Positions 56,872 through 64,000 of a stretch of DNA of 64,000 bases are shown in pieces. The notes under the pieces are model-generated. The model made no database searches. It worked only from the letters and a program-made list of their open reading frames with translations, and had not been told where the DNA came from. The number at the start of each line of letters is the position of its first letter. The stretch's first letter is position 1. Position numbers and translations under genes: made by a program. The stretch lies in the NCBI RefSeq assembly GCF_018069875.1, contig NZ_JAGQDF010000002.1:248001-312000 (forward strand), written 5' to 3'. Origin of the DNA: Ideonella alba. Its GTDB lineage: Bacteria > Pseudomonadota > Gammaproteobacteria > Burkholderiales > Burkholderiaceae_C.

Positions 56872-56895
56872 GGCGCCCCCACCGGGCGCCTTTTT
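56872..56895 (+). terminator. Intrinsic terminator of ETF-QO
   Basis: GGCGCCC (56872-56878) pairs with GGGCGCC (56884-56890), then five T residues (56891-56895). Confidence 0.85.
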
Positions 56896-57845
56896 CATGC
56901 CCCCGCGGCGGGTTCGTCCAGCGGCTGCACCGTCACCGCCACCCGCGGCTGCACCCGCCCGCCGCCGCGGATCACGCCGCGCAGCGGCGCCACGTCGGCG
57001 TAGTCGCGGCCCCAGGCCAGTGTGACGTGGTCCAGCCCGGCCGGCACCCGGTTGGTGGGGTCCAGCGCCAGCCAGCCCTGCTCGGGGCACCACAGGGCTG
57101 CCCAGGCGTGCGAGGCGTCGGCGCCCACCAGGCGCGGCTGACCCGGCGGCGGCTGGGTCAGCAGGTAGCCGCTGACATAGCGCGCCGCCAAGCCCAGCGA
57201 GCGGCAGGCACCGATCATCACATGGGCGAAGTCCTGGCAGACGCCCCGGCGCAGCGCCAGCGCTGCCACCGCCGTGGTGCCGGCATCGGTGGCGCCGTGC
57301 CCGTAGGCGAAGTCGTCGTGCACCCGCGCCATCAGGTCCAAGGCGGCGGCGGCCATCGGGCGGCCCGGCGTGAAACTCAGGCGCGCGTAGGCGGCCAGCT
57401 GCGGGTCGCGCGGGGCGAGTTCGGTGCCCAGCGTGAACTCCACCGCCTCGCGGTGGGTGGTGCCGGCGTGGTAGCGCAATGATTCGGCGACCGATTCCCA
57501 GGCGGGGCTGCTGTCCGGGTCGATGGCGGGCGGCGCGCTGAGGCCGGCCTCGAAGCGGCTGCGCACCCGCAGTTTGTCGTGCACCCGCGAGTGGCTGAAG
57601 GTGATGCGGCCATTGCCCCAGGGGTCCAAGCTGACCTGGCTGGGCGGCAGCGCCTGGCCGGCCGGACCAGCCAGCGCCAGCCATTCGTCGGGCGTGGGGT
57701 CGATGCTCAGGTCCCAGGCGCGCACCAGCTGGGTCTCGCTGCTGCGCGGCACCAGACAGGCCACGTGATGGGCCAGCTCCACCGGCAGCTCGTAGTCGTA
57801 ATGGGTGTCGTGGCAGATGCTGAGCCAGCGCAATGCCCCGGTCAT
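56895..57845 (-). CDS. Transglutaminase-like cysteine protease-fold protein
   Basis: 316 residues; N-terminal beta domain (YDYELPVELAHHVACLVPRS) and C-terminal transglutaminase core. Catalytic Cys in RRGVCQDFAHVMIGACRSLG, His in GADASHAWAALW, Asp in LALDPTNRVPAG. No signal peptide. ATG 57845 is chosen over an in-frame start inside the upstream gene; it lies 10 bases after the ATP-grasp gene. Third gene of the operon with DUF2126. Confidence 0.9.
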   Translation of the reverse strand: MTGALRWLSICHDTHYDYELPVELAHHVACLVPRSSETQLVRAWDLSIDPTPDEWLALAGPAGQALPPSQVSLDPWGNGRITFSHSRVHDKLRVRSRFEAGLSAPPAIDPDSSPAWESVAESLRYHAGTTHREAVEFTLGTELAPRDPQLAAYARLSFTPGRPMAAAALDLMARVHDDFAYGHGATDAGTTAVAALALRRGVCQDFAHVMIGACRSLGLAARYVSGYLLTQPPPGQPRLVGADASHAWAALWCPEQGWLALDPTNRVPAGLDHVTLAWGRDYADVAPLRGVIRGGGRVQPRVAVTVQPLDEPAAGA

Positions 57846-63500: not shown

Positions 63501-64000
63501 GGTGGCGCAGCATCTGCACCAGCAGCCAGCCGGTGTCCCGGCAGGAGCCACTGCCCTTGGTCAGCGTCTCCTCGGGCGTCTGCACGCCCGGTTCCATGCG
63601 GATCGTGTAGGCGATGTCGCGCTGCAGGCGCTGGTTCAGGCCCACCAGGAAATCGATCGTGCGGGTCTTCTCGGTGGGCACGCTGGCCAGCAGCGCGGCC
63701 AGCCGGGGCGTGGCCGGCTCGACCACCAGGTAGGGCGCCAGCTCGGCGCGCAGGCTGTCGGTGTAGGCGAAGGGGACGTGCTCGGCCTCGGGCTCCAGGA
63801 AGAAGTCGAAGGGGTTGTAGACCGACATCTCGGCCACCAGGTCGATGGTGACCTTGAACTCGGTGGTCTTCTCGGGAAAGACCAGGCGCGCCATGTAGTT
63901 GGCGAAGGCGTCCTGCTGCCAGTTGATGAAGTGGCCGGCCGGCTCGACCTGCATCGAGTACGACAGGATGGGCGTGCGGCAGTGCGGCGCCGGCCGCAGC
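60523..64000 (-). CDS. Large DUF2126 transglutaminase protein; 5' end cut by window edge
   Basis: At least 1158 residues. N-terminal transglutaminase domain: [20 protein letters not shown] (Cys), [20 protein letters not shown] (His, Asp). The DUF2126 region follows (about 270-1150): [60 protein letters not shown]. A low-complexity Ala/Gly/Gln-rich linker of about 80 residues splits it (near 550-630). The reading frame continues past 64000, and the first visible residues [15 protein letters not shown] imply about 30 missing. First gene of the three-gene operon. Confidence 0.92.
   Translation of the reverse strand, partial: [1158 protein letters not shown]

Follow-up and report, generated by a model that had tools for sequence, protein, structure and literature searches.

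A five-gene ATP-grasp, alpha-E, transglutaminase and DUF2126 locus of Ideonella alba with a putative sigma-54 promoter and a possible role under nitrogen limitation

Introduction

Gene sets combining circularly permuted ATP-grasp, alpha-E and transglutaminase proteins recur in bacteria and were proposed by Iyer et al. (2009), from comparative genomics, to serve peptide synthesis or modification; the proposal is cited in the available parts of PMC5666114, PMC6376114 and PMC3597751. No product of the gene set was found in the literature searched, in which the name "DUF2126" did not occur. Here, we describe a locus of this kind at the right end of a 64,000-nucleotide stretch of the Ideonella alba genome (contig NZ_JAGQDF010000002.1, positions 248001–312000; hereafter, the window). 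Numbers above 64000 continue the count of the window into the adjoining 19 kb, which are outside it but were analyzed as well. A preliminary description of the window had called the gene set recurrent, proposed for peptide synthesis and lacking a defined product, and the literature bears this out. We propose that the five genes of the locus serve during nitrogen starvation, forming an amide-linked conjugate and cleaving it again, and we put the probability of this whole explanation at roughly 0.5.

The domain set described in 2009 (circularly permuted ATP-grasp, alpha-E, transglutaminase, and transglutaminase–COOH-NH2 ligase) is the same as that found here. According to the Pfam entries PF14403 and PF04168, Iyer and colleagues reportedly told active ATP-grasp forms apart from inactive ones, which are often joined to alpha-E, and also described a transglutaminase in one chain with a permuted COOH-NH2 ligase. 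The Ideonella locus fits these features in each respect, with an intact permuted ATP-grasp, an ATP-grasp of apparently inactive type N-terminal to alpha-E, and both stand-alone and DUF2126-fused transglutaminases. As the Pfam text already contains the inactive ATP-grasp and the permuted ligase, our results on these two points are an independent confirmation and not a discovery.

The Anbu operon (Pseudomonas putida PP_2685–2688 and Yersinia bercovieri) shares the ATP-grasp, alpha-E and transglutaminase genes, and in P. putida it also shares expression under nitrogen limitation (available parts of PMC7801951, PMC8050072, and PMC3325844). It has four genes with Anbu as the last one, and neither DUF2126 nor a fused ATP-grasp has been described in it, unlike the locus here. 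The Y. bercovieri ATP-grasp releases phosphate from ATP, and the accessible text reports that Anbu showed no peptidase activity and that no complex was found (PMC6376114). The closest locus with expression data is Burkholderia cenocepacia BCAM1233–1236, listed as DUF404/407, DUF403, a transglutaminase and a "large" transglutaminase and strongly dependent on NtrC and sigma-54; unlike here, the listed order puts the small transglutaminase after alpha-E and ahead of the large gene (excerpts of PMC5491218). In Burkholderia sp. TSV86, the order is ATP-grasp, alpha-E, transglutaminase, transglutaminase-DUF2126, fusion, and transglutaminase.

Organization of the locus

The locus comprises five genes on the minus strand, separated from first to last by 32, 102, 60 and 10 nt. 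The first gene (65169–66602, L007:2170–3603, beyond the window) encodes an intact circularly permuted ATP-grasp (CP_ATPgrasp_2, 560 bits), and the second (64183–65136, also beyond the window) an unfused alpha-E protein (Alpha-E, 329 bits). The third gene encodes the transglutaminase-DUF2126 protein (60523–64080, 1185 aa from a GTG start at 64080; DUF2126, 1332 bits; Transglut_core, 61 bits) and is cut by the right edge of the window, so that 60523–64000 lie within it. It is followed by an ATP-grasp-alpha-E fusion of 868 aa (57856–60462; CP_ATPgrasp_2, 440 bits, and Alpha-E, 188 bits, in the same protein) and by a stand-alone transglutaminase-like protein of 316 aa (56895–57845; Transglut_core, 75 bits; Bact_transglu_N, 60 bits). 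The two alpha-E copies at the locus are the only ones in the genome.

The preliminary description had reported the last three of these genes as a three-gene operon spaced by 60 and 10 nt. The Pfam bit scores confirmed the three genes and their domains, and the gaps were exact on reading of the sequence. The extent was wrong, as the three genes are the downstream part of a five-gene set that continues past 64000; the DNA upstream of this point, where a further look had been advised, supplied the start of the DUF2126 gene and two further same-strand members, alpha-E and a second ATP-grasp. The five genes are probably co-transcribed as one operon. The locus almost certainly belongs to the known ATP-grasp/alpha-E/transglutaminase/DUF2126 gene set, of which it is a further example and not a new system. 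The genome differs from the system of Iyer et al. in that no Ntn-hydrolase of the Anbu type was found: the sole PF00227 match in the genome was HslV beside HslU, and no Anbu occurred among the operon neighbors. As no Anbu gene lies beside the ATP-grasp, alpha-E and transglutaminase genes, the locus was not classed as an Anbu operon.

Two ATP-grasp copies of different character

Named genomes were scanned with a 24-sequence DUF2126 alignment, and the best 80 of 591 confirmed loci were kept; the counts below refer to these 80 loci unless stated otherwise. In most of them, the order was transglutaminase-DUF2126, fused ATP-grasp-alpha-E, and transglutaminase. The fusion was found downstream of DUF2126 in 63 of the 69 loci with enough downstream sequence (within 500 bp in 54), and a transglutaminase followed it in 62 of the 63. 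L137 is a 64th fusion locus by its gene listing, missed by the distance rule of the count, and no fusion after DUF2126 was seen in L085, L119, L129, L145, and L147 among the 69 evaluable loci. The fusion is thus the usual form beside DUF2126, contrary to the earlier view that the two domains are usually separate and exceptionally fused here. Separate ATP-grasp and alpha-E genes were present in 41 of 67 evaluable loci, on the DUF2126 strand in 21 and on the opposite strand in 20. Fusion had also been thought to fix the stoichiometry and partnership of the two domains, which is only half true because each domain also occurs unfused in the operon. In G401 and G405, two genomes of the genus, a separate-type ATP-grasp match was followed by a fused-type match within about 2.6 kb, a spacing that appears too short to hold a separate alpha-E gene in between.

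The conserved E-x-N, D and N residues have a metal/phosphate role in glutathione synthetases. The fused ATP-grasp has A192, R194, V462, and S498 in place of the E, N, D, and N of intact copies. The four residues were kept in none of 67 fused homologs versus 41 of 44 rows classed as separate. Among the three exceptions, L109 and L114 sit directly after DUF2126 at contig ends and are therefore probably truncated fusions. The glycine-rich loop was not conserved in the fused homologs either, and the fused protein retains the ATP-grasp fold. The upstream unfused ATP-grasp keeps all four residues and matches the solved structure 3n6x (E = 3e-215) with the same motifs. Among circularly permuted ATP-grasp enzymes, glutathionylspermidine synthetase/amidase, eukaryotic glutathione synthetase and YgiC/YjfC are related at low identity (about 8–13%), and the fused copy, unlike them, is without the catalytic-type residues.

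Judged by these residues, the fused ATP-grasp is very probably catalytically dead, and we read the gene as encoding a pseudo-ATP-grasp-alpha-E protein. If the fused protein was meant by the earlier suggestion that a ligase of the operon builds an amide-linked product, the suggestion does not hold as stated: with the four residues lost in 67 of 67 homologs, ligase activity of this protein cannot be assumed, and it is the separate upstream copy that keeps them. The likelier ligases are the upstream ATP-grasp and the glutamine synthetase-like DUF2126 domain.

The DUF2126 protein and the transglutaminases

The transglutaminase-DUF2126 protein has an N-terminal transglutaminase domain followed by the DUF2126 putative amidoligase domain. 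All 50 structural matches listed for the DUF2126 model belong to the glutamine synthetase family, with middling Z-scores, and they include GmaS and 1-naphthylamine synthetase. DUF2126 differs from this family in its fusion to a transglutaminase domain and in the absence of significant sequence similarity: hhalign gave an E-value of 0.29 and a probability of 0.2% with shallow profiles (9 and 57 sequences), and the one local alignment paired GTGGGNH with NGSGMH. On the strength of the modeled fold, DUF2126 is likely to be a ligase of the glutamine synthetase type.

The Cys-His-Asp residues, already noted as intact in both transglutaminase domains, were located as triads in well-conserved columns. 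These are C203/H246/D262 in the small protein (96, 100, and 100% of 78 homologs) and C180/H229/D245 in the large one (99, 98, and 98% of 81 homologs). A PDB relative of the small transglutaminase is 6g49 (E = 5.5e-13). A low-complexity stretch lies at about residues 565–660 of the DUF2126 protein, counted from the GTG. A frameshift in this stretch was considered and rejected; it is a variable linker that is also long in several relatives.

A sigma-54-type promoter before the first gene

We searched upstream regions of 350 and 150 bp for the consensus TGGCACG-N4-TTGCW with GG and GC fixed and at most two mismatches. Within 350 bp, sites were found before 35 of 62 DUF2126 genes, 21 of 41 ATP-grasp genes and 2 of 10 transglutaminase genes that came first in their operons, compared with 4 of 181 internal genes. 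Among fusion genes classed as first, 3 of 21 had a site as well. With the region limited to 150 bp, a site preceded 34 of 63 DUF2126-first genes and 18 of 41 ATP-grasp-first genes; in 100 shuffles of these regions, the counts averaged 0.46 with a maximum of 4 and 0.48 with a maximum of 3, respectively. Sites with at most one mismatch occurred in Burkholderiales, in loci with Verrucomicrobiota titles, and in Reyranella and Enhydrobacter, as well as before a Desulfosediminicola transglutaminase.

The site of the I. alba copy, TGGTGCGCTTGTTGCT, is located at 66641–66626, outside the window, with two mismatches to the consensus, and its −12 element is 27 nt upstream of the ATG that starts the first gene (ATP-grasp). 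For a comparison within the genus, 14 upstream ATP-grasp loci (L175–L188) from a set of 16 genomes were used, G395 and G409, with fragmentary matches, being left out. A site was present at −27 to −31 in 12 of the 14 loci, in 11 of them exactly as TGGTGCG-N4-TTGCT. Across the 80 surveyed loci, whose strand sequence totals 3.17 Mb, this exact form occurs three times, and two of the three are the ATP-grasp promoters of L070 and L072. The loci with the exact form in the genus include L179 and L181, which differ from the others in the DNA farther upstream. The upstream DNA of G408 (L184) is identical to that of Ideonella benzenivorans (L070) over the 130 bases compared.

RpoN and an above-cutoff NtrC are encoded in the I. 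alba genome. An exact NtrC-type palindrome, TGCAC-N7-GTGCA, lies 62–65 bp upstream of the −24 element in the I. alba copy, where it sits at 65 bp in coding DNA, and in L070; in the genus, a palindrome with at most one mismatch was found near −104 (−101 to −116) in 9 of 14 loci. Over all loci, the palindrome signal was weak (7 of 113 versus 2 of 181). Sigma-54 control of the I. alba copy is highly likely, and NtrC control is plausible. Given the sigma-54-type promoter before its first gene, the operon is probably induced by nitrogen limitation through NtrC.

The conservation of the motif agrees with published NtrC-dependent and nitrogen-limitation expression in Burkholderia and Pseudomonas. The preliminary description made no link to nitrogen, nor did the window offer it one. 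In the accessible data, BCAM1233–1236 of B. cenocepacia were lowered by log2 6.0–9.4 in an ntrC mutant, the one case in print of expression lost without RpoN or NtrC, and were among the common sigma-54 and NtrC targets (PMC5491218). In wild-type P. putida, PP_2686–2688 rose 11–15 fold under nitrogen limitation, and PP_2685 (Anbu) changed just 1.12-fold in the same table (visible part of PMC7801951). On nitrate, PP_2685 and PP_2688 were raised by log2 4.44 and 3.99; the promoters of both were picked and tried as nitrogen-limitation sensors (excerpts of PMC8050072); PP2685–2687 are also listed as raised in the available part of PMC3325844. As far as the literature searched goes, the conservation of a sigma-54 promoter in the DUF2126 branch is an addition to what is known of this gene set. 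Two reports weigh against regulation by nitrogen, namely stable expression under various conditions (accessible text of PMC5666114) and no mention of the gene set in the available portion of a P. phymatum nitrogen-starvation paper (PMC5748707).

Proposed function and alternative explanations

The explanation we propose is as follows. Transcription would start from the sigma-54-type promoter before the first gene, induced on nitrogen limitation via NtrC. The upstream ATP-grasp and the DUF2126 domain, as candidate ligases, would use ATP to join a carboxylate to an amine through an amide bond, and the two transglutaminase-like cysteine enzymes would cut or transfer such bonds. Such a make-and-break cycle, comparable to that of glutathionylspermidine synthetase/amidase, has about even odds in our estimate. 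The ATP-grasp-alpha-E fusion would act as a non-catalytic partner that may bind peptide, nucleotide or DUF2126. A nitrogen compound would be stored, tagged or recycled, and a purpose in the nitrogen economy is slightly more likely than not. The activities and substrates of the operon proteins are predicted ones throughout. Three results make the system testable: the upstream ATP-grasp, not the fused one, as the enzyme; nitrogen limitation as the condition; and the fold expected of DUF2126.

The promoter evidence could be read differently, with the operon constitutive and the sites due to chance or to conserved coding sequence of the ComEC-like gene in front. The I. alba site does fall inside the 3′ end of the upstream open reading frame, and conservation of the NtrC-type palindrome could partly be of coding origin. 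However, L178, L179, and L181 have the site at the same place even though their DNA upstream of ATP-grasp is unlike that of the other loci, and sites before DUF2126-first and ATP-grasp-first genes outnumber those in shuffles about seventyfold and fortyfold, respectively, so we consider this reading very improbable. Scarcely more probable is the view that the fused ATP-grasp, which retains its fold, is an active enzyme with an altered active site, as all four compared positions are changed in every one of the 67 fused copies, the glycine-rich loop is not conserved, and structural residues are also kept by pseudo-enzymes.

Two other explanations also involve nitrogen limitation, and we regard both as unlikely. 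Ligases could attach an amino acid or peptide to proteins, in the sense of ubiquitin or pupylation, with the transglutaminases removing or exchanging the tag and tagged proteins being turned over, in some hosts by Anbu; nitrogen limitation would induce the system so as to raise protein turnover. Tagging has been proposed in print for the Anbu operon (parts of PMC6376114 and PMC5666114), and at least two proteasome-fold genes, a proxy for Anbu plus HslV, were found in 74 of 145 genomes with alpha-E versus 11 of 105 without. Against it, HslV beside HslU is the only proteasome-fold gene found in the I. alba genome, and the accessible text of PMC6376114 knows of no tagged protein and no Anbu peptidase activity. 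A shade less probable is nitrogen-scavenging catabolism, in which a poor nitrogen source (an amine, a polyamine, or a cyanophycin-like or peptide fragment) would receive a glutamyl-type group from the ligases, and usable amino acids would be freed by the cysteine enzymes. Gamma-glutamylation pathways work in this way on putrescine. The published nitrogen-limitation expression and the sigma-54 motifs fit such a role, as do GmaS and 1-naphthylamine synthetase among the structural matches listed for DUF2126. In marine metagenomes, DUF403/404/407 and the transglutaminase N-domain correlate with urea-metabolism domains (available part of PMC3597751). Yet scavenging finds no counterpart in the neighborhood, as no recurrent transporter or oxidoreductase lay beside the operon in the 80 loci and the one clearly recurrent neighbor family was ComEC-like.

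If the proposed role of the operon in nitrogen starvation is true, the locus would point to an unrecognized branch of the bacterial nitrogen economy. More speculatively, the DUF2126 branch across several phyla might form a sigma-54-controlled nitrogen-starvation module in which the DUF2126 ligase took over amide-bond formation, the ATP-grasp-alpha-E protein, having lost catalysis, holds the substrate, and the transglutaminases reverse the bond; this is doubtful at present, and if true, a reversible amide-linked nitrogen conjugate would be new to biochemistry.

Distribution and neighboring genes

Among 250 genomes of the order, DUF2126 was detected in 89 and alpha-E in 145, and 88 of the 89 had both; the single genome with DUF2126 and no alpha-E (G224) carries DUF2126 fragments only. 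DUF2126 was also detected in 46 of 150 genomes drawn from the phylum. The gene set is thus common and yet without a product.

The recurrent ComEC-like family was present in 23 of the 80 loci. In I. alba, the gene immediately preceding the first ATP-grasp gene (L007:3600–6170, 66599–69169 on the window scale) was recognized as ComEC-like by inspection, and its stop codon overlaps the start of the ATP-grasp gene. Many related genera (L074–L089) also have a ComEC-like gene just upstream of the ATP-grasp-alpha-E pair, with DUF2126 often divergent there. The recurrence looks like shared synteny.

Downstream of the operon, an ETF-ubiquinone oxidoreductase gene (ETF-QO, 55133–56815) is convergent with the last transglutaminase gene. 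A stop-free frame of 2065 codons runs antisense to the operon on the plus strand (57805–63999); because the DNA is 71–74% GC, it is a composition effect and no gene. Farther along the minus strand, at 52215–54993, an H-NOX protein (haem-NO-binding; HNOB, 120 bits) is encoded just upstream of a PAS-GGDEF-EAL protein, and the two likely form a nitric oxide-to-cyclic-di-GMP signaling pair.
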